64,000 bases of DNA from Eubacteriaceae bacterium CHKCI004. GTDB taxonomy: Bacteria > Bacillota > Clostridia > Lachnospirales > Lachnospiraceae. Each line of letters opens with the position of its first letter. The first letter of the stretch is position 1. A program made the position numbers and the translations under genes. Below the pieces are notes generated by a model that was given only the letters and a program-made list of their open reading frames with translations, made no database searches and was not told the origin of the DNA. The stretch is from positions 186,001-250,000 of the forward strand of contig FCNR01000023.1 in NCBI GenBank assembly GCA_900016875.1. The letters are read 5' to 3'. Shown here piece by piece: positions 2,826 through 64,000 of this stretch.

Positions 2826-3371
2826 TCAGGACAGAAACTCCTCATACAATTCGCAGGTCTGCCGGTCAAATCCGCACAAAATCACTTCTATGGCATAACC
2901 CTCATGCTCTTTCATCCATTGCCACACGGTCTCCGCCGCTATGGGAACCGCTTCCTTAAGCGGATACCCGTACACTCCCGTAGAGATAGCCGGAAATGCA
3001 ATGCTTCTGACGCCGTGCTCCTTCGCCAACTCCAGGGAATTCCAGTAGCAGTCCGCCAGAAGCTCCGCGTCCTTCGGTTTGCCGGAATAGACCGGCCCCA
3101 CCGTGTGAATGACGTAGGCCGCCTTCAGATTATACCCTTTCGTGATCTTCGCCTGTCCTGTCTCGCAGCCGTGAAGCGTCCGGCACTCCTGCAGCAGTCC
3201 CGGCCCCGCCGCCCGGTGGATGGCGCCGTCCACGCCTCCTCCTCCCAGAAGGGAGCGGTTGGCCGCATTAACGATACAATCCACATCCAGCTTCGTGATG
3301 TCGCCCTGGCAGATGGACAGCTTACTGCCCTGGCTCATTTCCAGCATTACTTTCATAGAATTTTCTTTCAT
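2826..3371 (-). CDS. Macro-domain ADP-ribose-binding protein (YmdB-like)
   Basis: About 181 residues. Family hallmarks are in order: QGDITKLDVDCIVNAAN near the N-terminus, LLGGGGVDGAIHRAAG (the ADP-ribose loop), YVIHTVGP, and AFPAISTGVYGYP. Such proteins hydrolyse O-acetyl-ADP-ribose or remove ADP-ribose from macromolecules in the cytoplasm. I prefer the ATG at 3371, preceded by a GGGGGTG stretch; the frame is open to an ATG at 3401 without a ribosome site. It ends just before the sortase remnant, with no clear functional link. Confidence 0.9.
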   Translation of the reverse strand: MKENSMKVMLEMSQGSKLSICQGDITKLDVDCIVNAANRSLLGGGGVDGAIHRAAGPGLLQECRTLHGCETGQAKITKGYNLKAAYVIHTVGPVYSGKPKDAELLADCYWNSLELAKEHGVRSIAFPAISTGVYGYPLKEAVPIAAETVWQWMKEHEGYAIEVILCGFDRQTCELYEEFLS

Positions 3372-3528
3372 AATCAACAACACCCCCATACGTTTTTTCA
3401 TATTTTTTTAAAAAACAAAAATAAAGATTTTCTTTTCTATATTTTTATGATATTATTATTGTTGAAAATATATTTTCTGCTATGTTTTATTTCCAGAACG
3501 ATACTTACCATGAAATGGAGGGATTATC

Positions 3529-3921
3529 ATGAGTATCAACCGAGACAAATTATTAACGATAAGCTGTATCATTATGATCATCGGGCTTCTCTTTGTGGCT
3601 GCGGCCTTCTTCCCGATTCTTGACTGGAGCAGGCATCCTGTATACCTGAACCTCAGAATGTATGTGGCATTCCCGGTTCTCTACTTTATCTGCGGAATAG
3701 CCTTTGCCAACATGATTATCCGGTATTTCTCCCGGGTGAGGGAACGTCTGGCGCTGCTGTCCCGCGAGAAGCGCTCCCGCGGGCTGGCTGTCGTTCTCAT
3801 TCTGCTGGTCATTCTGGAAGTCTGCGTATTTGCTTTCACCCCGGTGCGAATCTTTGTGGCAGTGCGTTTTCCGCTTCTCTATATGATACCGGGGATGGCT
3901 GTGTGCGCGCTCAGTGAGTAA
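3529..3921 (+). CDS. Four-helix membrane protein, unknown
   Basis: 130 residues with a GGAGG site 8 nt before the ATG. Four hydrophobic segments can be seen (about residues 9-28, 44-63, 84-101 and 107-126), with a basic loop (RVRERLALLSREKRSRG) between helices 2 and 3 that should face the cytoplasm. No family recognised. It is monocistronic and converges on the xylulokinase gene. Confidence 0.7.
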   Translation: MSINRDKLLTISCIIMIIGLLFVAAAFFPILDWSRHPVYLNLRMYVAFPVLYFICGIAFANMIIRYFSRVRERLALLSREKRSRGLAVVLILLVILEVCVFAFTPVRIFVAVRFPLLYMIPGMAVCALSE

Positions 3922-3928
3922 ATTATTT

Positions 3929-3958
3929 ATTGAACACACGACTCCGACGTGTTATGTT
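3929..3958. terminator. Hairpin between convergent genes
   Basis: Inverted repeat around GAACACACG / CGTGTTATGTTC between the membrane protein and the xylulokinase stop. It could end transcription of either strand. No long T-run, so weak. Confidence 0.35.
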
Positions 3959-5442
3959 CACTCTTCCATCACATCCCACAGCCGTTCATACAGCTTCCTA
4001 TATTTCTCGTATCCTTTCCGGTAGACGTCCGCGTTTCGCTGATCCGGGAGATATATCCGCTCGTCCATGGAGACAAATCTTCCGCAGGCTTCTTCCAGGG
4101 AAGGAAGGATGCCGGCGCCTACGGCTGCCAGCAGGCAGCTTCCGAGGCAGGCCTGTTCTTTTACCCGGCTTGCCCGGACGGGTTTGCCTAAGATGTCCGC
4201 CTGGATCTGAAGCCACTGTGTGGAGGCTGTGGCTCCGCCGGAGGCGATGATTTCCGGGGCGTCGATGCCCAGTTCCTGTATGATACCGAGGCAGTCTTTC
4301 AGGCTGTAAGCCACGCCTTCCATGACCGCCCGGAGGAAATGTCCCCGTTCCTGCCCGAGGGTCATGCCGAAGAACACGCCTTTGGCGTTCGGATTCATGT
4401 GGGGCGTCCGCTCTCCGGACAGGTACGGCAGATAAATGAGCCCTTCCGCTCCCGGGCGGACTGCCGATACCAGTGCGTTGACTTCCTCATAGCTGTCCAC
4501 ATGCAGCACTTTGTTCTTGGCCCAGTTTAAGGACATACCGCTGCACAGGGTGGCACCAAAGATGGTGTAACCGCCGCGGACCGCATGACAGAAAGTGTTA
4601 GTGCGCAGTTTTTTATCAAAAGACGGCTTCTCCGAAAATGCGGAAATCTGGCCGCCGGTTCCGATGTTGCAGATAATCTGACCACTTTTGATAACGCCGT
4701 TTCCAATGCTCTGGGCCGGCTGATCACCGCTGCCGTATATGACAGGAATCCCTGCCGGAAGACCTGTTTTCGCGGCGCAGGACGGACTGATGGTTCCGGC
4801 AATGTCCGCCGACTCTTTTACCTCCGGGAACAGCCGGGCAGGCAGGCCGAAACGTTCCAGCACATCCCAGGCCCAGTCCCGTTTTGCCGTGTCAAACATG
4901 GTCGTAGAAGAGGCGTCTACCACTTCCGCGCCGATCTCTCCCGTCATTTTATAGCGCAGATAATCCTTCGGACTCAGCACATGAGCCGCACGGGCAAAGG
5001 CATCCGGTTCATTTTCTTTCACCCACAGCAGTGACGGAAAGGCAAATCCGCTGCTGACGCGGTTGCAGAATGTCCGTCCCATCTCTTCTTCCGGCAGGAC
5101 AGCGCTGATCTGCTCCAGCTGCCTGCCCGCCCGCTGGTCAAGCCAGATGATGGCGGGACGCACCGGATATCCGTCATCTCCTGTCAGCACAAGACCATGC
5201 ATCTGACCGGAATATCCCACGGCGCAGACGGCCTCAAAGGCATCGCGGTACATTTCCCGCAGACAGCCAAGAACTTCCACAAGGGAGTCCCACCACATTT
5301 CCGGACTCTGTTCCGCCCAGCCAGGATAGGGAATATCCACACCGTAGTCTTTTGCCTTTACTCCGACCACTCCCCCGTCCACATCCAGCAACATTGCTTT
5401 TACGCTGGATGTGCCCAGATCGATTCCTAATATTGTTCTCAT
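3958..5442 (-). CDS. xylB: Xylulokinase
   Basis: 494 residues, the usual FGGY-kinase length. It shows the phosphate-binding start LGIDLGTSSVKAMLLD, the substrate loop GYSGQMHGLVLTGDD, WLDQRAGRQ, and the FGGY C-terminal signature region YLPYLSGERTPHMNP. It phosphorylates D-xylulose to xylulose 5-phosphate for the pentose phosphate pathway. The ATG has a GAGGAGAG site. It lies 11 nt after the DUF89 gene, so the two are cotranscribed. No xylose isomerase or transporter is next to it, so the true substrate could be another pentulose. Confidence 0.9.
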   Translation of the reverse strand: MRTILGIDLGTSSVKAMLLDVDGGVVGVKAKDYGVDIPYPGWAEQSPEMWWDSLVEVLGCLREMYRDAFEAVCAVGYSGQMHGLVLTGDDGYPVRPAIIWLDQRAGRQLEQISAVLPEEEMGRTFCNRVSSGFAFPSLLWVKENEPDAFARAAHVLSPKDYLRYKMTGEIGAEVVDASSTTMFDTAKRDWAWDVLERFGLPARLFPEVKESADIAGTISPSCAAKTGLPAGIPVIYGSGDQPAQSIGNGVIKSGQIICNIGTGGQISAFSEKPSFDKKLRTNTFCHAVRGGYTIFGATLCSGMSLNWAKNKVLHVDSYEEVNALVSAVRPGAEGLIYLPYLSGERTPHMNPNAKGVFFGMTLGQERGHFLRAVMEGVAYSLKDCLGIIQELGIDAPEIIASGGATASTQWLQIQADILGKPVRASRVKEQACLGSCLLAAVGAGILPSLEEACGRFVSMDERIYLPDQRNADVYRKGYEKYRKLYERLWDVMEE

Positions 5443-5453
5443 AACTCTCCTCC

Positions 5454-6365
5454 TCAGCTGTTCCTTGTATCACGCTCATGAACCAGCATCCCCGAAAATG
5501 GCTCGACACCAAACATATCCGAGAAAATGTGACATTTACATAAAAACAGATAATAAATGTTTTTGCCGCAGCAGCGCAGCGTCTCAAAATTCGCCTGTCC
5601 CTTTGCCATCATCACATCTGCGGACTCCATCCGCGCCAATGCTTCTTCCGATAATTCCGGCAGCCAGGTACCTGCCACATCATTGCCGTTATCTACCACA
5701 TAAGCGATTTCTCCCAACCCCACCTGCGCGGCGTCCATGCGGGTAACATCATTTAATGTTTCCGCTCCTCGGACTACGATAGACACAGAAATCTGTGGAT
5801 ACCGTTTTTTTATTTCCTCAATAAGAAGCTTATCAAGAACCACTTCCCCGCAGTTGTCCGTGAAAAACACAAAACGTTCCGCTTTACTCAAATCCTGCTG
5901 CAGACGAGAATATGTATCTTCATCCACCTTTTGCTCCTTTGCTGTCCCCAGAAGTTGATTCAGCTTTTTTTCGTCCACATTCTTCATAGCTCCAAAATCA
6001 ATATAATTGCCAATCATGGACAACTGCAGCGCCATTTTCAGCGGATCCGCCGCTTCGGCAATCTGCCGCCGGAATTCCTCCTCCTTCTCCATAATGATCT
6101 GATTGAAATGTATTTTGATTCTGGTATAATTATCGGCCTCCCCGAACATTTCCCTGCGCACTTTATCAATATCCCTGACAATGACCGGTATTGCATCGGT
6201 TTTTGGCGCTTCAGCAATCAGAGCCATAACTCTCTGCATATAATCAATCTTAGCTTCTTCCGGGACATCCTCCGGATACTTTCTCAGATATTTGTCGCAG
6301 GTGCAGGTAATGCACTCCGGGCGGAGACGGTGAATCTCCTGTATTTTTTTCGTTTCTTTTGTCAT
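5454..6365 (-). CDS. DUF89/ARMT1-like damage-control phosphatase
   Basis: 303 residues from the ATG at 6365 (GAGGAG site; the open frame runs further upstream but without a start signal). It has the N-terminal CxxC (CITCTC) of the prokaryotic subfamily, the metal-binding FFTDNCGEVVLDKLL and the late NGNDVAGT and KGQANFE motifs. Family members are metal-dependent phosphatases that clear damaged or overflow sugar phosphates. Linkage to a sugar kinase fits: it may remove excess or wrong phosphorylated product made by the XylB-like enzyme. The substrate here is inferred. Confidence 0.85.
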   Translation of the reverse strand: MTKETKKIQEIHRLRPECITCTCDKYLRKYPEDVPEEAKIDYMQRVMALIAEAPKTDAIPVIVRDIDKVRREMFGEADNYTRIKIHFNQIIMEKEEEFRRQIAEAADPLKMALQLSMIGNYIDFGAMKNVDEKKLNQLLGTAKEQKVDEDTYSRLQQDLSKAERFVFFTDNCGEVVLDKLLIEEIKKRYPQISVSIVVRGAETLNDVTRMDAAQVGLGEIAYVVDNGNDVAGTWLPELSEEALARMESADVMMAKGQANFETLRCCGKNIYYLFLCKCHIFSDMFGVEPFSGMLVHERDTRNS

Positions 6366-6668
6366 ATTTTTTCTCCTCGCAACATATGTTTTTGGTAGGC
6401 TGACTATACACAGAAACTTATCATAATGACAAATTCTGACACAGAAAATCATCAGCTTTTATACATTTTTTATAAATTAACTATACTATTCTTCTTATAT
6501 GAATGCAACAAATATACTGATATTTTCAGTAAAACATCATAACACTGCCTGCCTTGATTTTCCTATCATAACAATATATTATATAGGAGGAAATGGGTCT
6601 GACGCGACAATATTTTGACTATAATTTTACAAAATGCCGTTCTTATAAACGGCGGAATGGAGAATTTC

Positions 6669-7214
6669 ATGAAAAGAATTGTTGTAATTTACGAATCCAG
6701 ATACGGCTCAACAAGAAGATATGCAGAATGGATCGCGGAAGCGCTGTCCTGCTCCTTTTATGAGAAAGATATTTTCAAGCCGGAAGATTTCACCAACTAC
6801 GATGTGGTCATTTACGGCGGCGGCCTTTACGCCGGAGGAGTCAGCGGTATCAAGCTGCTCACCAAAAACTGGGAGCTGCTCCGCGACCGGGAGGTGATTC
6901 TTTTTACCTGCGGTCTGGCTGATCCGGAAGATCCGGACAATACCGCTCATATCAGAAAATCTTTGTCCAAAGTTCTTTCCCCGGAAATGTTTGAACACCT
7001 TCATCTGTTTCATCTTCGCGGCGGCATCGACTATGACAAACTGAGCTTTGTACATAAGTCCATGATGGCTATGCTGCGCAAGTCTCTCGCCAGAAAGGAC
7101 AGGGATTCTCTTCGGGAGGAAGACCGGCAGCTGCTGGATACTTACGGCTCCTGCGTTGATTTCACCAGCAAGGAAAGTATCCAGCCAATCGTGCAGTGCG
7201 CGCTGTCGCTGTGA
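6669..7214 (+). CDS. Flavodoxin-domain protein (HemG-like)
   Basis: 181 residues from the ATG at 6669, which has a GGAG site; the upstream in-frame ATGs lack one. The start KRIVVIYESRYGSTRRYAE is a flavodoxin FMN phosphate loop (T/S-rich YGST). YGGGLYAGGVSG and FTCGLADPED are further flavin-contact loops. Size and pattern resemble menaquinone-dependent protoporphyrinogen oxidase-like flavodoxins. In anaerobes these are usually general electron carriers or quinone reductases. Stands alone; it converges on the TauE exporter. Confidence 0.8.
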   Translation: MKRIVVIYESRYGSTRRYAEWIAEALSCSFYEKDIFKPEDFTNYDVVIYGGGLYAGGVSGIKLLTKNWELLRDREVILFTCGLADPEDPDNTAHIRKSLSKVLSPEMFEHLHLFHLRGGIDYDKLSFVHKSMMAMLRKSLARKDRDSLREEDRQLLDTYGSCVDFTSKESIQPIVQCALSL

Positions 7215-54326: not shown

Positions 54327-56021
54327 TTATGACACCTTTTTCCCTTTCTGATTTGCTTTATAGTCTGCTTTTGCATCGTCCACTTTCAAGTCCTGATTAC
54401 ATTTCAGAACAAAAGTCAGTTTATATGGAGAAGGATCGCCGTTTTCATCATAGCCACCGACAATTACCTTTTCCACGATGCTTTCAAACACGATACGGTC
54501 AAATTCATCCAGGATATCTTCATTTTCCAGTGTCTTCCGAAGCTGTTCCATACGCTTGCTTATATTCTTTTGCTGTCCGATATTTTCTTCCAGATAAGCC
54601 TTTTCTTCTGTCATCTGATGAAGTTTCCGCTGAAAACTCAGCTTCTTTTCATCATAGTCTTCCTGCTCTATTTTACCATCAATCAACAGATCTGTTAACC
54701 TGCTTTTTTTCGTTTCAATACTGGATATATCCTTCTCCAGCTGCTTTACCCGTTTTAATTCAGTATCATCTTTCAAGACATCTTCAATGGTACACAATAC
54801 GGAATCCAGAACATCATCAAAGTTATCTGCCAACAGTCGGAATGCATCCAGAAATGCATTTTCAATAATTACTTCATCAATCGCTTTACAATTGGGACAA
54901 TTACTGATTCCATTCTTGGTTGCATTCATGCACTGCCAGACTGGTTTTTTCGTTGTAGTCGTCTGGTGTCTTGTTCTGCGGGAAAGTTTATGACCGCAAT
55001 ACCCACACTCCAGCATACTGCTGAATGTAAATTGTCTGGTGTATCGTTCTCTGTTCCCGGTTGTCTCCATCAGCCTTGGTCTTACACGCTTCAGGCGAAT
55101 TTGCTCTGCCTTATCCCAGATTTCTCTTGAAACAATTGGTTCATGGTGGTCCCTGATATAATACCGCTCCTCTTCCCCCATATTGGCAAGCCGTCTCTTC
55201 GATATGGGATCAACCGTAAATGTTTTACCAAGAAGAACATCTCCCTTATATTTCTCATTTTTGATGATTCCCATCACTCCATGCGTATGCCATTCTACAG
55301 TTCCACACCTATTTTTGATTCCTAATTCCATCAACCTTCTAGCAATAGTTGAAGTACCGTATCCCTGCAGATACAGATCATAAATCAGACGTACTGTTTC
55401 TGCTTCCTGTTCATTCACAGTAATTGTCTTAGTCTCCCGGTCGTAATCATATCCCAGGCATCCATTGAATCCAATCAGTTCGCCCCGCTTCATTTTCATC
55501 CGTAATCCCATCTTCACATTCTCCGAAAGGGATTCCACTTCTCCCTGCGAAAGAGAACTAAGGATGGTAAGGAGCATTTCACCATTCATGTCCAGTGTAT
55601 TAATATTTTCTTTTTCAAATATAACGGCTATATTCCGGTCACGGAGCATACGCACATATTTCAACGTATCCTGTGTATTTCTGGAAAACCGGGAAATGGA
55701 TTTTGTAAGGATCATATCAATTTTCCCATTCTGACACTCCCTTATCATTTCCTGAAATCCTTCCCGTTTGTCCACTTTCGTTCCGGTGATTGCTTCATCT
55801 GCAAAAATACCCGCCAGCACCCATTCTTTGTTTTGACGTATTTTCTCTTCATAATAAGACTTCTGAGATACAAAGCTGCCAAGCTGCTCATCTCCGTCCG
55901 TAGACACACGGCAGTATGCCGCAACACGGATACGCTGAACCGGCATCCCCATACTCCGTCTTCCCACACTGTTTGTTGTTGTTTTCGTTGCTTCTAAAAT
56001 CTGAACTTGTCTCATACCCAT
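54327..56021 (-). CDS. Large serine recombinase
   Basis: 564 residues. Catalytic Ser in VAAYCRVSTDGDEQLGS, LTKSISRFSRNTQDTL with the active-site Arg pair, recombinase domain GFNGCLGYDYDRETK, zinc ribbon MLECGYCGHKL and CPNCKAID, and a coiled C-terminus (LEKDISSIETKKSRLTDLL). Integrase/excisionase of mobile elements. ATG with a GGAGGTAG site. It lies near the XRE repressor at the right end of the 34-bp-repeat interval. Confidence 0.93.
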   Translation of the reverse strand: MGMRQVQILEATKTTTNSVGRRSMGMPVQRIRVAAYCRVSTDGDEQLGSFVSQKSYYEEKIRQNKEWVLAGIFADEAITGTKVDKREGFQEMIRECQNGKIDMILTKSISRFSRNTQDTLKYVRMLRDRNIAVIFEKENINTLDMNGEMLLTILSSLSQGEVESLSENVKMGLRMKMKRGELIGFNGCLGYDYDRETKTITVNEQEAETVRLIYDLYLQGYGTSTIARRLMELGIKNRCGTVEWHTHGVMGIIKNEKYKGDVLLGKTFTVDPISKRRLANMGEEERYYIRDHHEPIVSREIWDKAEQIRLKRVRPRLMETTGNRERYTRQFTFSSMLECGYCGHKLSRRTRHQTTTTKKPVWQCMNATKNGISNCPNCKAIDEVIIENAFLDAFRLLADNFDDVLDSVLCTIEDVLKDDTELKRVKQLEKDISSIETKKSRLTDLLIDGKIEQEDYDEKKLSFQRKLHQMTEEKAYLEENIGQQKNISKRMEQLRKTLENEDILDEFDRIVFESIVEKVIVGGYDENGDPSPYKLTFVLKCNQDLKVDDAKADYKANQKGKKVS

Positions 56022-57346: not shown

Positions 57347-57460
57347 CTCCCCTCATTATGTATTTGACTATTATGGCATTAAAAAGCACTGAAAATCCTA
57401 AAATGGTTTTTTCAGTGCTCTTTGCCTCGTATTTTTCAATTTATATATATCAAATAAATC

Positions 57461-57883
57461 TTAGTTTGTTTGTAATAATCGAATGGTGTTTTCATCTTTC
57501 TTGCCATCAAAGAATTTATCAATGACTTTTCCAAACACAGAATCATATCCTGCAATTTCTGCAAACAAGGTCATAGAAGAACAAAGTTTTATTCCATCAA
57601 TCCACCCCATCACCTGATACGGATTATTATTATCCAGCAAAAGTAAAGCCTGGCTTATTTCTCTGAGTCTTTCTCCAAGAACCGGATGTTTAAGATATTC
57701 CGTCGCTTCTTCTATGCTTTCTATCCCATAATATTTTGCTGTGGAACTTTGACCAAGCTGTTTTAGCTGTGGAAATATATACCATATCCAATGACTTTCT
57801 TTACGACCATTCTGAATTTCCTTTAATGCATCCACATAACTGTATTCCTGAGCTTCTACAAATCGAGTCAAATTATAATTCAT
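57461..57883 (-). CDS. DUF1810-family protein
   Basis: 140 residues. NLTRFVEAQEYSYVDALKEI, SHWIWYIFPQLKQLG, YGIESIEEATEYLKHPVLG and KFFDGKKDENTIRLL are the DUF1810 landmarks. Calpastatin-like small helical proteins of unknown role. ATG with a GGGGAG site. Just outside the direct repeat. Confidence 0.88.
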   Translation of the reverse strand: MNYNLTRFVEAQEYSYVDALKEIQNGRKESHWIWYIFPQLKQLGQSSTAKYYGIESIEEATEYLKHPVLGERLREISQALLLLDNNNPYQVMGWIDGIKLCSSMTLFAEIAGYDSVFGKVIDKFFDGKKDENTIRLLQTN

Positions 57884-57946
57884 GCCAAAATCTCCCCTTT
57901 CATAATGTCCCCTCTCTTTCTAAACCAAAATCCTCATGCAATTTCA

Positions 57947-58669
57947 TTACACCATTCCAAGCAAAGTGGCTGCATTACCAAAAGCAATCTGATCAATATA
58001 CTCTTTTTCAAAATGCTCGTATAAGTACTGCAATCCATATTTCACACTTGGCGGCCGGAATATTGTTCTATGAGCATCTGAGCCAAGAAATGTGACTCGC
58101 TTTTCTTTTACCAATTGTATTGCATTTGCTTTAATGTTTTCGTTTTCTTCATCAAATACACTATATGTATTTATCTGAAACATACATCCATTTCTTTGAA
58201 GTTCCTCTATACAGCTGTCATTTCTGAATAATTCTCCGTATCTTTCCACATGTGCCAAAACCGGGACCCAACCTTCCTCTGACAATCGTTCTGTACATTT
58301 TATGACTTCCTCTGATTCAACGGACGTTGAAAACTCTGCCAATACATACCGGGTATTATTTAAAGCCGGTATCCTGTGTTCTTTTAGACTTGTCAATATC
58401 TCATCAATCACCTGATTACCACACCGAATCTCACATCCAAAATAAATCTCCAGATCCGGCAAATAATTTACTGCCATCTCCTTAAGCTGTAAAAAAAGTG
58501 TTTCTACTTCCTGATTTCCACATTCTACAAATGCGCTGCTATGAGGTGTTGCAATTATTTTTCGAATTCCTTGTTCATATGACATGTACAGCAAAGTTTT
58601 TGACATGTCCATGTCCCAACTTCCATCATCTACCCCTGGAATGATGTGCATATGAATATCGTACATTTT
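57947..58669 (-). CDS. CpsB/YwqE-type PHP tyrosine phosphatase
   Basis: 240 residues from the ATG at 58669 behind GGGGGA. YDIHMHIIPGVDDGSWDMD, TPHSS, GCEIRC, VLAHVERYG and GSDAHRT are the metal ligands of manganese-dependent PHP tyrosine phosphatases that dephosphorylate capsule/exopolysaccharide tyrosine kinases. The start lies inside the preceding gene (44-nt overlap), so the two are translationally linked. No polysaccharide kinase is near. Confidence 0.9.
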   Translation of the reverse strand, partial: KMYDIHMHIIPGVDDGSWDMDMSKTLLYMSYEQGIRKIIATPHSSAFVECGNQEVETLFLQLKEMAVNYLPDLEIYFGCEIRCGNQVIDEILTSLKEHRIPALNNTRYVLAEFSTSVESEEVIKCTERLSEEGWVPVLAHVERYGELFRNDSCIEELQRNGCMFQINTYSVFDEENENIKANAIQLVKEKRVTFLGSDAHRTIFRPPSVKYGLQYLYEHFEKEYIDQIAFGNAATLLGMV

Positions 58670-59825
58670 CATCGGCATTTCCCCCAGACTCTGCTTCATA
58701 CTCTTCGTGCAATAATACTGGAATCTTGTATTCTCCGAATACCAAATATAATACAAGCAAAATGTCTGCAGGATTCCGAAGAAGCGGCATACCAATATCT
58801 GCCGAAGTAATCAAAAACATATCCGCTAAAATTCCCAATACTGTATATAGTAATACGGATGCCATCAAAATTTTTACAAGAGGTTTTTTGCCGGCACCTT
58901 TGATTTTCACAATCATCACAATACAATACAGTAGAGTAAGTTCCATGATTATCACAATCAATGCAGGAAGCCAGCCGTTTTGGTACTTAATCCAAAACAG
59001 CGGACATTCATATATACTTTCTGAAATCCAGCCATTTTTCAAAAATGACAAATTGCCCAGCCAGACATCTGAGAATAGGGAAATGCGGTATCCGATCCAG
59101 TTTATCTCTACCAGATTGTCTGTTGCAACCGATGTAACCGGATTTCTCAAGCTTCCTATGATTTGTAGTATTCTATCATGATCCCAGAAAAGAAATACAC
59201 AACTCATTACTGGCAATATCCCGTTTATCAGAGAATATTTATGTTTATTCAAATCAGATTGGCCCTGCACTGCAGCTATCCATGACAGAATCCCTATCAC
59301 CAGCATATATATCATTTCCACAGGATTCCTGCGGAAAAATTCTGACATAACGAGTTTATATTGAATCAACCAAATCCCCACTGTAAAAATTATATAATAA
59401 AGAACCACTTCCACTATGTAAGGCAACGGTTTGCTCTTTCTTTTCAATCCCAGCAGTCTTACAGCTAACAAATATGTAAATACAGGCCATAGAGTTAAAC
59501 ACAATCCTTTTACCGTATATCCTAAATCATATCCTAACCATGTCCTAAGTAAACAGTAAAGGATACATTCTGAAATAAAGAGGGTTCCGACATAGATTTT
59601 GTTTTTACTGATCTTCCATACAAATACACACAAAAAACCTGACAACAGAAAATAACAAAATCTCAACATGTATTTAGATCCATAACGATTACTGGCCCAT
59701 GCAATATAAGGATCCGATACCGATGTGCTTTTCAGACTCCAGACATATATCGAAACGCTGATCAAAATAGTGATGACTGCTCCCAATTGGAATAAGCGAG
59801 TTTTACCTTGCATCGTACTTTTCAT
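58626..59825 (-). CDS. SEDS-like (FtsW/RodA-type) polytopic membrane protein
   Basis: 399 residues from the ATG at 59825 with a GAGGGGAG site. About ten membrane helices. The order of loops near the end (IGYRISLFSD, ECPLFWIKYQNGWLPALIV, ITSADIGMPLLRNPADILL) parallels the glycosyltransferase SEDS proteins FtsW/RodA, but the GVPLPFISYGG motif is replaced. A diverged paralogue acting on a cell-wall or polysaccharide lipid is possible. Overlaps the CpsB-like gene. Confidence 0.55.
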   Translation of the reverse strand: MKSTMQGKTRLFQLGAVITILISVSIYVWSLKSTSVSDPYIAWASNRYGSKYMLRFCYFLLSGFLCVFVWKISKNKIYVGTLFISECILYCLLRTWLGYDLGYTVKGLCLTLWPVFTYLLAVRLLGLKRKSKPLPYIVEVVLYYIIFTVGIWLIQYKLVMSEFFRRNPVEMIYMLVIGILSWIAAVQGQSDLNKHKYSLINGILPVMSCVFLFWDHDRILQIIGSLRNPVTSVATDNLVEINWIGYRISLFSDVWLGNLSFLKNGWISESIYECPLFWIKYQNGWLPALIVIIMELTLLYCIVMIVKIKGAGKKPLVKILMASVLLYTVLGILADMFLITSADIGMPLLRNPADILLVLYLVFGEYKIPVLLHEEYEAESGGNADENVRYSYAHHSRGR

Positions 59826-60014
59826 ATAAATACTCCCCTCTGCTTTTTGACGAATCACTCTGTTCGCCTTGTTTCTGCTCAATGTTAACAGGTTTTTATA
59901 AATGCAAATCCCTGATCATACCAATTTTAGCGTTCATATTCTTCACGAAAACAGACAATATCCTAGCATAAAATAATCTAAAATTAGTGTTTTGTTATTC
60001 TGAAGCGCTTTTAG

Positions 60015-60061
60015 AAAAAACGGCTACATCACCTATATTGCCAGGTTTATAGCCGTTTTTT
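60015..60061 (-). terminator. Terminator of the AAA/membrane operon
   Basis: AAAAAACGGCTA pairs with TAGCCGTTTTTT around a 23-nt loop; both strands end in a T-run. It lies 100 bp past the last gene of the operon and in the gap to the SEDS-like gene. The rest of 59826-60161 holds no gene. Confidence 0.8.
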
Positions 60062-60161
60062 GTTTTCCATCTGTCAATGGCAGGATTCCCGCTTATTTTA
60101 AAAAAATGTTCAACTCTTTCCTGTAAAGATTTATTTTATTCATGTCATTTTCACTGTTTTA

Positions 60162-61286
60162 TTATGCCTGTACATATTCTCCTGTAAGTTCTTCCTGTTC
60201 TTTTCTGGTTGCCTGTGTACTTTGCGCCTGAGATGTATGTTCTTCCTGGGCATTATCCGTTACAAGTGCAGCGATTCTTTTCTTGATTTTCTCCCAGAAA
60301 GCATCCAGCCTTGGACCGATAGTCTCGTGATACCAAAGGGCTAATCTTTCCTTACCTTCCGTCACCTTATCACTGATTCCGGTTTTTTCGCTGATCCATT
60401 TTCCCGCCTCTAAAATAGGGGTTATTATGCTTACGCCGTGAATCATCCCAAAAATACAAGCAGTCACTGTTCCGATGATTCCCATTCCGACAACAGCCTG
60501 TACGATAATAAATATAAAAGAAGCGGTAAATACCGCAAGCTTCAATCCAATAAAAGCCATAAGTGTCAGAAGTGCGGCTCCTGCAATAAGTTTCAGCTTT
60601 TCTTTCACTTTTTCCCATGAAAGCTTCCCTAGAAGCCATTCGTGGATCGCTAACTGTGTTTCAAAAGATGCGGCAGTGGAAACACCGATTTCCTGCTCTG
60701 ATATGGCAGCCGGGATATCTTCCAGTTCCCCGGTCACTTTAAGAATGTAAATAGCTAAAGCTGTGTAAAGTTCCTGCTTTTCTTTTTCGCTTGCATCTGT
60801 TAATGCCTTTATATCCTTCTCTTTCAGTTCATCCGCAATCAGCTCTGCCGCTTCACAATCCATAGTTAAAATAGCGTATTCACAAATATATTCCTGAACC
60901 ATTCCCTTAAGTTCTCCAAGCGACAGCTTCTGAAATTTTTCATCTGACATTTCCTGACCGGAGATTTCAGCGCAAGCACTGATAATATCCAAAAGAAGCA
61001 TTCTTTGATTATTTTCATCATACCGTTCAAGCATGCTGGAAAGCTTTTCATCCGCTAAAGCTTTTAATCCTTTGCCTTTTCCAGCTTCATAATTTTCATA
61101 AAAAGACCGGATTCCTTCTTTAAGCCCTGACACAATCTTATCTCCGTCAACATCAAGACGGCTGTTCAGTGAATCTGCCAGATTCTGTTCCACACTCTGT
61201 TCCGTCTTTTCTTCATTCATCAGCTCTCTGACCAGTTTTTCGGCTTTTTCCATCTGCTCTTTTGTCCATGTTTTGTTATTCTTCAT
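60162..61286 (-). CDS. Membrane protein with long helical N-terminal domain, unknown (third gene of AAA operon)
   Basis: 374 residues. Residues 1-230 are cytosolic, acidic and helical (KEQMEKAEKLVRELMNEEK, ALADEKLSSMLERYDEN). Two to three membrane helices lie at about 232-300 (LIAGAALLTLMAFIGL and FIFIIVQAVVGMGIIGTVTA), followed by an amphipathic helix and a Gln/Thr-rich tail. No family recognised. The same layout as the next gene: helical domain, glycine-rich membrane hairpin, short tail. Confidence 0.75.
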   Translation of the reverse strand: MKNNKTWTKEQMEKAEKLVRELMNEEKTEQSVEQNLADSLNSRLDVDGDKIVSGLKEGIRSFYENYEAGKGKGLKALADEKLSSMLERYDENNQRMLLLDIISACAEISGQEMSDEKFQKLSLGELKGMVQEYICEYAILTMDCEAAELIADELKEKDIKALTDASEKEKQELYTALAIYILKVTGELEDIPAAISEQEIGVSTAASFETQLAIHEWLLGKLSWEKVKEKLKLIAGAALLTLMAFIGLKLAVFTASFIFIIVQAVVGMGIIGTVTACIFGMIHGVSIITPILEAGKWISEKTGISDKVTEGKERLALWYHETIGPRLDAFWEKIKKRIAALVTDNAQEEHTSQAQSTQATRKEQEELTGEYVQA

Positions 61287-61343
61287 CCTAAAAACCTCCT
61301 ACTTAACCTTTATTCCATTCCATACTGCATTTTCTCAAAGATA

Positions 61344-62411
61344 TTACGCTTTTACAGTCTGAGTTTCCTGTTCCTCCGTTGAATTGCGGGCACCCCTCTG
61401 CCGTAAATGATGAGGTGCATCTGTCTGCCACTTTCCGATCATGGATGTATGTTCCTGATAAAAACTCCTGGCCTTTCCTAATCCCAGATATGCCGCTGCC
61501 GCTGCCGCCACACCGGTTCCAACTCCCATTAATGGAATCAGAGATAAAAACGGTTGAATCCAAAGCCTTAAGGTGCTGTGCATTAACCACTGTGTTACCG
61601 AAGGACCTAAAAGGGATGTGACCCCTGTAACTACAGCGTTCCCGGCAGCTACAATGTGGGGTCCGGCGACCACGGCTACGCCAATGCCCACGACCACAGC
61701 TACAACTCCGGCAATCACTTTAAAAACCACTTCATTCCGGTCTTTGCAATCCGGTATATTTTGGACTGCATCTGCCGATGCTTTGCAAGCAGCCATGCAT
61801 ACCCCAAGCATGAAGGGCTGCTGCTGAAAACTCATAGGCACTTCCCCATCTACACCGGCCACATAAGTTGCTGCTGACAAGATCATCATATCCGCATTTG
61901 CATCACAAAGTTCCTCTCTCCCACCGGCATCCTTTAAAATATCACAAGTCAGCAGATCCGCCAGCGTTTCCATCTGTCCGGCTACCATATCCTTCATTTC
62001 TTCTTCTGACCATCCGGCTAATTCTGACGCACTATCCGCTTCCTCTGCTTCCAAAACACCATTTTGGAAATGAAGCTGCCGGAATTGTTCATAACTTTGA
62101 AGATAAAACCCTTTCGCCTGAGAAGGGGTCATATCCTTTGTAAGATATTCCAGTACTCTCCGATGGTCTACAGGATTATTCATGACAGATTCTTCATTCT
62201 GACATGACTCATAGACCTGGTTGAACTTATCCATTCCCGCCTTAATCTCTTTGCAGGCTTCAAGCAGTTCCTGATCTGAACTGTTAGGACACATATAAGC
62301 CATTATTTCGGCTACATTCTCAATATCTGCGGGATCACCTTCCAGTCTGGCTTTGATCAACTCATATTTTTCTTTAATGCATTGCTGTTGCTGTAGTGTC
62401 AACGCTTTCAT
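61344..62411 (-). CDS. Membrane protein with helical N-terminal domain, unknown (second gene of AAA operon)
   Basis: 355 residues. A helical N-terminal domain (1-225) includes ATYVAGVDGEVPMSF, a little like TerB-type helices. Glycine- and valine-rich membrane helices cover about 228-310 (VIAGVVAVVVGIGVAVVAG, LMGVGTGVAAAAAAYLGL). The tail is polar. No family recognised. Cotranscribed with its neighbours, 57 nt to the next gene. The amphipathic, small-residue-rich helices could insert as an oligomer. Confidence 0.75.
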   Translation of the reverse strand: MKALTLQQQQCIKEKYELIKARLEGDPADIENVAEIMAYMCPNSSDQELLEACKEIKAGMDKFNQVYESCQNEESVMNNPVDHRRVLEYLTKDMTPSQAKGFYLQSYEQFRQLHFQNGVLEAEEADSASELAGWSEEEMKDMVAGQMETLADLLTCDILKDAGGREELCDANADMMILSAATYVAGVDGEVPMSFQQQPFMLGVCMAACKASADAVQNIPDCKDRNEVVFKVIAGVVAVVVGIGVAVVAGPHIVAAGNAVVTGVTSLLGPSVTQWLMHSTLRLWIQPFLSLIPLMGVGTGVAAAAAAYLGLGKARSFYQEHTSMIGKWQTDAPHHLRQRGARNSTEEQETQTVKA

Positions 62412-62476
62412 GTCGCTCCCCCTTTCTGATTGTTATTATAATATGTATTTTTCAGAAAAACACGGAACTGAATTCC

Positions 62477-64000
62477 TCAAAATCGGTCTCTGCAATTTAT
62501 TTTTTCCTGCAGATTACAGATTTCCTCTTGTATCCGTTCAAACATCTGCCGATCGTATTCATTATCTGTCTCTGGCCTTTTTAAAAACTGAGGTTTTCTG
62601 CGTAAAGTCTCCTTCTCATCATAGATACCTTCATCAAAATTTCTGAAAGAAAACAAATCCCCCTTGCCAGCCTGCATATACTGATTCTGCCGTGCCTCCA
62701 ACCAGGAAAGGGCGATATCCTTCATGTTCGTCTCACCATAGGGCTGACTATCGCCACCGATTGCAGTCTGAAACAACGCGTCTCTGTACCCTTCGAAAGT
62801 GATCTTACTTACGTCATGGCAGCTTCTTCTCAGGGCTCGGTGAGTCTGAAGAATCAGACTTTCGATATTGGCTCCTGTATAAAACAAATTGCGTTTCTCT
62901 TTTTTTCCATAATCAGCGATTCTGTCAAAAAAATCGGATGCCAGTTTATCATACTGGTCTCTAAAATCATTACAAAGTATATTTCCGGAAAGCTGATCTG
63001 CTTTTTTTAGATGAAATTTAAAAATTTCTATAAGCTCCTCTTTGGCGGGCATAAATACATAGAACCGCATATCAAACCGCCCGTCTCTAAGAAGCTCCGG
63101 ACGCAGTCCCTTAACGCTGTTGCTCGTAGCAAAAAAGAAAATAGCCTTATTATTTTCCTGAAGCCAGTCTAAAAGAGCCGCCAAAAGATTCATCTTCACC
63201 TCATGGCTTCCACCCATATCTTCAGTACCAAAAAGCTTCTCCAATTCGTCAATTAGGACAACACATGGAGCCAGCGCCTCGATCCGTTTACGGCACCGCT
63301 TAAAGTTTGCCTCGGAATCTCCTACAAGACCTCCCAAAAGATTGTCCATACGAAACTGTACAAGAGGAACATTCATCTGGTAAGCTGTCAGCTTTGCCGC
63401 CTGAGTTTTTCCGCTTCCCGGGACGCCTGAGAGCAACACCCCTTTTGGCGGACGCATCCCCCACAGTTGGCATTCATCCGGATGGAGCATGTCGTCCTTA
63501 ATTTCTTTCAACCAGTTTTTATATCCATCCAGACCGGATACAGATTTTTGGGGATCAAGTAAAGTCACAGTGCTGTCATAGCGTGCCGACTCCTCTTTGT
63601 AACTTTTTACCAAGCTGCGGCGTTTTTCCTGAATCTCTTTTATATTCTCCGGCTTGCCACAGGGCGTATTGCTCATACCAAAAAAACTTCCATTACTGCT
63701 GCGCAAAGCCTCAACAATTTCCATAATATCCCTTCTTGACATACCTTTAAAATCTTTTGCCGCTTCCTCTATTCTTTCCCGGTCCGCTTTGCACAGGTCT
63801 TCCTCATACACCTCCCACAATGCTTTATTATTATTCTGTTCCTTCACTGCTTCCGCCGAAAGAAGCTCTGTAATATCTTCCTCATCCATTTCCGGAACGT
63901 CAATAATTTCTGTCACTGATTCAAATCCCGCCGGAAGCATTAAAATATTGCTGATAAGGAAAAGATAAACGGGATGATTATTTTTTTCCTGCTCTTTTGC
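62477..64000 (-). CDS. Ycf46-like AAA+ ATPase, 5' end beyond window
   Basis: The frame is open to the right edge (AKEQEKNNHPVYLFLISNIL reads into the first visible Met, counted as residue 1), so the true start is outside. The visible N-terminus (FLISNILMLPAGFESV, EIIDVPEMDEEDI) matches the degenerate first domain of Ycf46-type proteins. Then a full AAA+ domain: Walker A GVPGSGKT (172-179), Walker B VVLIDELEK, sensor ATSN, arginine finger RDGRFDMRF. Cytosolic. First gene of a unit with two membrane proteins. Confidence 0.85.
   Translation of the reverse strand, partial: AKEQEKNNHPVYLFLISNILMLPAGFESVTEIIDVPEMDEEDITELLSAEAVKEQNNNKALWEVYEEDLCKADRERIEEAAKDFKGMSRRDIMEIVEALRSSNGSFFGMSNTPCGKPENIKEIQEKRRSLVKSYKEESARYDSTVTLLDPQKSVSGLDGYKNWLKEIKDDMLHPDECQLWGMRPPKGVLLSGVPGSGKTQAAKLTAYQMNVPLVQFRMDNLLGGLVGDSEANFKRCRKRIEALAPCVVLIDELEKLFGTEDMGGSHEVKMNLLAALLDWLQENNKAIFFFATSNSVKGLRPELLRDGRFDMRFYVFMPAKEELIEIFKFHLKKADQLSGNILCNDFRDQYDKLASDFFDRIADYGKKEKRNLFYTGANIESLILQTHRALRRSCHDVSKITFEGYRDALFQTAIGGDSQPYGETNMKDIALSWLEARQNQYMQAGKGDLFSFRNFDEGIYDEKETLRRKPQFLKRPETDNEYDRQMFERIQEEICNLQEKINCRDRF

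Follow-up and report, generated by a model that had tools for sequence, protein, structure and literature searches.

A nine-gene operon of a Lachnospiraceae bacterium that joins an Hsp70-like ATPase and a p97-type AAA+ ATPase to two membrane-hairpin proteins: a candidate conflict system

Genes and features of the operon

We analysed a 64,000-nucleotide stretch of the Eubacteriaceae bacterium CHKCI004 genome (contig FCNR01000023.1, positions 186,001 to 250,000; hereafter the window), at the right edge of which lies an operon encoding an AAA+ ATPase (AAA) and two membrane-hairpin proteins, A and B. Within 60162–64000, three open frames run on the minus strand in the order AAA, B and A (62477–64000, 61344–62411 and 60162–61286, respectively), as the initial annotation had placed them. 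The genome comprises 4.0 Mb in 86 contigs, and this contig continues for 8.3 kb past the window's right edge. The AAA gene is open at that edge, the window holding the C-terminal 507 of its 637 residues; it extends 390 bases further and is whole at L002:4478-6391, where L002 denotes the operon including its part beyond the window edge and L027 to L069 denote other loci. Beyond the edge, six further genes on the same strand lie upstream of the AAA gene, giving a row of at least nine. The initial annotation had taken the unit for a three-gene system and had suggested looking past the right edge; with the AAA gene completed and six genes added, among them one for an Hsp70-like ATPase, the three-gene unit is rejected.

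In operon order, the genes encode proteins of 160, 450 (with a 2H part), 438, 289 and 272 residues, the Hsp70-like ATPase of 670 residues, AAA, B and A, separated by intergenic gaps of −74, 15, 39, −29, 53, 31, 65 and 57 bases. Because the first two frames overlap by 74 bases, the start listed for the 450-residue frame is probably too early. Shine-Dalgarno-like sequences precede both A and B. As initially proposed, one Rho-independent terminator closes the unit (60015–60061, minus strand). It folds at −23.3 kcal/mol (z = −4.97, with none of 200 shuffles equal), and a run of T lies in and after its 3′ arm; one separate scan did not list it. At the other end, the contig stops about 0.4 kb beyond a 144-residue frame (L002:13529-13963), the last one on this strand, so the upstream side is seen only in part.

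The identity of the AAA+ ATPase is borne out by its motifs, namely GVPGSGKT at residue 322 (the sole Walker A in 637 residues), DE at 381–382 (Walker B) and GRFD at 437 (arginine finger). The whole protein matches Pfam AAA with an expectation value (E) of 2.4e-27 and finds its nearest models and chains in the CDC48/FtsH/p97 type. An alignment of six sequences, its own and five relatives, contains 46 invariant columns, and the AAA profile matches p97/Cdc48 chains, with two stretches in most of the best 60 of 266 rows. By motif, the C-terminal domain is predicted to be active; the N-terminal half, which carries no Walker A, looks like a degenerate ATPase domain, we infer.

A (374 residues) has hydrophobic segments at 244–262 and 264–282, and B (355 residues) at 232–250 and 288–306. 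In each protein a long segment-free part precedes the hairpin and a polar tail follows it, which confirms the equal layout described earlier. Neither reached a curated cut-off in Pfam or NCBIfam; PHROGs gave nothing better than E = 0.086 and PADLOC gave nothing. BLASTP at E = 0.01 did not pair A with B. Profile-to-profile comparison, however, aligned the two with scores of 53.9 (E = 1.6e-6) and 68.1 (E = 1.2e-8) over 212 and 229 columns. In a control set of 244 sequences (122 proteins, family members included, and their 122 reversals), the A profile scored 44.0 against B alone, the next-best non-B score being 29.9 (reversed A), and the B profile scored 25.4 against A alone, below the best unrelated sequence (27.8). 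Judged by their profiles, A and B appear to be remote paralogues, as had been suspected, with a kinship that single-sequence comparison would not reveal. Assignment of A/B to ApoL, SLATT, ThrE or phage-holin families was rejected, each resting on a single sub-threshold Pfam match in one member; SLATT_4 matched 1 of 10 A/B family members (E = 0.0038, below its curated cut-off) and none of the window proteins.

Upstream of AAA, the 670-residue protein exceeds the cut-off of Pfam HSP70 (PF00012; 22.2 against 20.6 bits), its best stretch covering just residues 379–417. A three-sequence profile of this Hsp70-like family matched solved DnaK chains at E = 3.7e-9 over a best stretch of about 60 residues, and the protein fell below all NCBIfam DnaK cut-offs. 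Motifs that we take to be the Hsp70 nucleotide motifs are present. The 289- and 272-residue accessory proteins are remote paralogues (E = 5.6e-11), and the former has an N-terminal hydrophobic segment (anchor). The 438-residue protein begins with a short domain common to proteins beside other AAA genes. The 450-residue protein (L002:11520-12872) contains a LigT/2H-phosphoesterase part (Pfam, 8e-8) with motifs HITL and HVTL. Its C-terminal domain occurs as a separate gene in L027 (L027:3622-4224, 41%) and its 2H part as a separate gene in L032 (L032:3935-4645, 38%); among systems of this type, a gene has apparently been fused or split.

The DNA downstream of the operon (57400–60100) has just 41- and 44-base matches in 23 other genomes of the genus, which marks the region around the operon as apparently accessory. 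A gene for a large serine recombinase (54327–56021; Resolvase, Recombinase and zinc ribbon), 4 kb from the operon, perhaps marks the end of a mobile element.

Recurrence of the AAA–hairpin pair

The family Lachnospiraceae was surveyed in 299 genomes, each of another genus. A was found in 5 of them; 16 had an AAA that reached E = 1e-30 or better, in 18 places altogether. The A-family profile detected 4 of 391 class genomes, its own included and the other three weakly (6.5e-6 to 6.9e-4), and 1 of 195 relatives, which was the own genome. In a collection of genome contigs, AAA retrieved only the L027 record and one remote AAA, and B retrieved no relative; AAA had no match in a collection of viral contigs. 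An AAA of this type is by itself common, with some match in 1542 plasmid and 140 phage records.

BLASTP relatives of A lie in L027 (28% identical), L028 (two tandem copies, 54% alike) and L030, and one of two hairpin proteins of L031 is a further relative; the second L031 protein and that of L032 join the A family through the alignment. B has a counterpart in L027 (L027:11697-12746, 24% identity). Altogether, seven loci hold the larger kind of system (L002, L027, L028, L030, L031, L032 and L042). L002 and L027 have the same order of 438/450-residue protein, accessory pair, Hsp70, AAA, B and A, and L028 combines two A-type genes with a helix-turn-helix-like protein, a 438-residue protein, a pair, Hsp70 and AAA. 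L030 encodes a DO-GTPase2 (29.2 bits, cut-off 27), another pair, proteins of 345 and 439 residues, AAA and A; L042 encodes a DO-GTPase2-like protein (13.7 bits; E = 9e-5 against that of L030 by BLASTP), a pair, AAA and two hairpin proteins. L031 and L032 carry WG repeats that exceed their cut-off and a helix-turn-helix-like protein that stays below its own, together with AAA and the hairpin protein or proteins. Since AAA and a hairpin protein are constant across the seven loci, these two constitute the core, and the rest is exchanged (Hsp70, DO-GTPase2 or WG repeats). The expectation that the AAA and hairpin genes remain neighbours in other genomes thus held.

Hairpin-type proteins also accompany the AAA more widely. 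Hydrophobicity lists and sequences, read by eye, covered the 17 family loci whose AAA reached E = 1e-30 or better and placed such a protein nearby in 14 of them, the exceptions being L041 (a 3.7-kb contig), L057 (none) and L061 (doubtful). A rule-based neighbour test found them in 12 of 23 loci; 17 of the 68 neighbours qualified, compared with 6 of the 104 background proteins (Fisher, 4e-4). This test is crude: the window and L002, one locus, were counted twice, the match in L047 is doubtful, 3 of the 6 background matches belong to the systems themselves, and the rule missed the clear members L028, L040, L046, L058, L060 and L062.

Several candidate relationships failed. The two hairpin proteins of L042 were not significant as A homologues (E = 0.011–0.24) and have only a similar layout. 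The same applies to a 'Y' hairpin family of 534–584 residues, which adjoins AAAs of 501–534 residues in L049, L058, L059, L060, L062 and L063; at E = 0.0026–0.0062, its likeness to A was taken as one of layout alone. Likewise rejected were an adapter domain shared by the WG proteins of L031 and L032 (E = 0.28) and an Hsp70 identity for the 345-residue protein of L030 (E = 0.01). At L049, on the Streptococcus satellite phage Javan368, the stretch 3115-7068 encodes a 573-residue protein with a C-terminal two-segment hairpin, a 154-residue protein and a 525-residue AAA. Downstream of the L030 hairpin gene lies an Hsp90-family gene (L030:5038-7146; Pfam HSP90, 3e-67), which could be either a plain htpG or a component of the system. 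Regulator genes that are 46% identical (L040:8273-9244 and L058:10256-11020) precede AAA–hairpin loci in two genera; we take them to be WYL-type, a class of regulators that often governs defence genes.

Relation to CoCoNuT operons and other described systems

Two loci found through the AAA, L040 and L043, encode beside it proteins of 517–522 residues with a C-terminal glycine-rich hairpin region, here called Z. Both loci also hold proteins starting with a 50-residue domain (VRNLEELxENFD...). This domain matches the start of the 438-residue type of protein in L002, L027, L028 and L030 (E = 3.1e-6, probability 88, in one profile comparison without a reversed control). Relatives of Z occur on 15 Enterobacteriaceae plasmids, and in 15 of 15 the match enters the next gene (annotated AAA in 13, hypothetical in 2). 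Opened on two of these plasmids, the gene row reads VWA, Z, AAA, CARF, VWA (hypothetical in one), PP2C, kinase and AAA-domain protein, an order that fits the extended Type III-A CoCoNuT operon (PMC11090510). Such operons carry a glycine-zipper ('bacteriocin-like') protein beside a SpoVK/p97-like AAA as a predicted defence extension, and the middle part of the glycine-zipper protein is an inactivated PD-(D/E)xK (PMC11090510).

A profile of four Z sequences matched A at E = 4.5e-6 over 121 columns of the hairpin region, and the reverse comparison, A to Z, gave E = 7.3e-5 over 64 columns of the N-terminal domain. When the Z profile was run over the 244 sequences, 7 of 8 A-family members ranked within the best 15, the first row being a Z protein. 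A is thus probably a distant homologue of the CoCoNuT glycine-zipper protein, and the earlier view that both partners of the AAA are unlike anything described gives way for A.

Compared with that of the CoCoNuT module, the own AAA is likewise p97-type with Walker motifs in its C-terminal half only and is 37% identical over 259 residues (E = 3e-43). In both, the AAA has a neighbour with a helical N-terminus and a C-terminal membrane hairpin, and the neighbour in the CoCoNuT module appears to be distantly homologous to A. By contrast, the operon studied here has two hairpin paralogues and an Hsp70-like ATPase, and A measures 374 residues against 517–523 and aligned to Z at both ends only. Because A is some 145 residues shorter and aligned at its ends only, the inactivated PD-(D/E)xK middle part seems to be missing from it. 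Among the operon and flanking proteins scanned, no VWA, McrB, CARF, kinase or phosphatase Pfam match was found, the contig ending upstream.

Hairpin-type proteins encoded one gene from an AAA on plasmids of Exiguobacterium and Microcystis matched Z at 6e-11 and 1.7e-5, so AAA–hairpin pairs of the Z kind appear to occur in at least three phyla. Searched in its phylum, the Exiguobacterium protein gave just short glycine-rich matches in 7 of 348 genomes; among plasmids, it retrieved itself and the Microcystis protein, which in turn retrieved itself only. The Z protein L040:1718-3271 matched PADLOC PDC-M09B (E = 1.8e-5, residues 120–288), and its relative L043:2611-4179 did not at 0.01. An unverified phage clone (L069:49-1596) holds a Z-related frame, 43% identical, whose start is presumably a transposase; this frame is an insertion junction or a chimeric clone.

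Two further described systems were compared. GTPase-centred conflict systems comprise DO-GTPase2, GAP1-N2, HSP70 and GrpE (Kaur et al. 2020, PMC7159879). The likeness lies in an HSP70-type ATPase within a multi-gene, probably membrane-directed Firmicutes system and in the DO-GTPase2 of the relatives L030 (over cut-off) and L042 (under). The differences are that a p97-type AAA is central in the own operon and that GrpE has no sequence support there. No TRAFAC/DO-GTPase was found in the window operon. GAP1-N2 (PF20013) was over its cut-off in 0 of 7 genomes and was therefore rejected for the paired proteins of L030 and L042; the own genome gave a single match, away from the operon, which was at chance level (11.1 bits). 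The own AAA domain also matches models of IetA, of the IetAS system, but its 507-residue part scored 58.6 bits where the cut-off is 510, and no protease family was found among the operon proteins, the partner in IetAS being a serine protease. In the literature searched, we found no description of the composite operon.

Proposed function and alternatives

AAA hexamers of the p97 type thread proteins, Hsp70 can pass substrates to an AAA disaggregase (DnaK–ClpB), and glycine-zipper hairpins can oligomerise in membranes. The anatomy of the operon is observed; from it we infer a function. In the reading we consider most likely, at a rough probability of 0.45, this is a nine-gene chaperone-gated membrane-effector operon that serves as a conflict system of the abortive type, directed against phages or mobile elements. 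The Hsp70-like ATPase, together with its accessory partners and an adapter-type protein, would sense a trigger, for example a misfolded or assembled viral protein, and set the threshold. This chaperone module would gate the AAA hexamer, which would thread or remodel the hairpin proteins, so that they leave a held state and oligomerise in the cytoplasmic membrane. Once formed, the A/B oligomer would depolarise or reshape the membrane, arresting the infected cell. The patchy occurrence and the tie of A to an operon predicted to act in defence favour a conflict role over housekeeping; with identities of just 24–30% between L002 and L027, as against 55% for AAA, A and B would fit such a role. Of the three roles offered initially (defence, secretion or membrane remodelling), a defence-like one is the best guess here too, and the others survive as a lesser rival.

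More doubtful is a specific Hsp70-to-AAA relay, in which the logic of DnaK–ClpB would be used as an immune switch. An Hsp70-like sensor would pass activated protein on to a hexamer of the p97 type, which would build a pore out of the two paralogous hairpin proteins; the sensor could be swapped for a DO-GTPase2 or a WG-repeat propeller, the AAA–hairpin execution core staying constant.

A number of observations weigh against the conflict reading. The link between A and Z is modest. In the Z-profile run, the best control, a reversed sequence at 34.4, ranked third, with one A member (40.9) ahead of it and six behind; over two runs, the reversed sequences climbed to 34.4 and 36.4, higher than most A-family members scored singly. 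A weaker link resulted from two Z sequences (E = 2.1e-5 in one direction and 0.0014 in the other). The comparison of B to Z was not significant (E = 0.25). A itself is a weak glycine zipper, with 8 glycines in 75 residues. AlphaFold returned an all-helical, low-confidence model of A (mean pLDDT, the predicted local distance difference test, 52.4) and an unusable one of B (39.6), so poor as models that they speak neither for a pore nor on the fold. Of the profile and structure searches proposed at the outset, the former yielded the A–B and A–Z links, whereas the latter failed for A: Foldseek gave 0 matches at E = 0.001, and a second fold comparison reached a Z value of at most 7.2, mostly over low-confidence residues, with no significant match. 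A GrpE identity for the accessory pair was not supported, with no Pfam match at 0.05 and a search of solved chains that returned no GrpE even up to E = 10, and the pair of L028 is barely linked to that of the operon (E = 0.0005 to 0.29). Among the nine operon proteins, PADLOC recognised AAA only, weakly, as IetA, TRIP13 and mads_8. Finally, fast change seems not to be special to A and B, since the Hsp70-like protein has also diverged (34% between L002 and L027).

Membrane-protein quality control is an unlikely alternative. The AAA, like Msp1/ATAD1 or p97, would extract hairpin or aggregated proteins handed over by the Hsp70-like ATPase, and A and B would be anchors or docking platforms rather than toxins. 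The closeness of the AAA to CDC48/FtsH/p97-type models and chains, the adjoining Hsp70-like gene and the Hsp90-family gene beside the relative L030 all agree with this. A patchy occurrence, however, is unlike housekeeping, A and B are less conserved than AAA, though with Hsp70 little better preserved, the other genes of the row are exchanged between genomes, and a homologous pair stands in a predicted defence operon. Distinctly improbable is a structural or secretory role, with AAA and hairpin scaffolds remodelling membrane or serving an injection or vesicle apparatus: a Treponema plasmid does carry a related AAA within a contractile-injection locus, but Pfam scans of the operon and flanking proteins, and of some genes of the relatives, revealed no gene for injection or tail functions. 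Least probable is a toxin–antitoxin-like arrangement, in which one of A and B would be a membrane toxin kept inactive by AAA and Hsp70 and the other its immunity partner, since the tandem hairpin paralogues of L002, L027, L028 and L031 are set against single hairpin genes in the fetched stretches of L030 and L032 and against an L028 pair unusually alike for toxin and antitoxin.

Returning to the chaperone-gated conflict operon, in the literature found, the pair of AAA and glycine-zipper protein occurs solely as an accessory to CoCoNuT restriction operons, in a predicted role. Here, a related pair lacks the CoCoNuT core, is fronted by chaperones and has partners that can be exchanged, and so offers a compact unit for experiments. 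The operon resembles a module predicted to act against phages, of which it would be a rewired and uncharacterised relative, and it probably acts on the cell's own membrane. This raises the question of whether a signal from an Hsp70 can make a p97-type AAA arm or disarm proteins that act on membranes; if so, machines of protein quality control would be tied to bacterial immunity.

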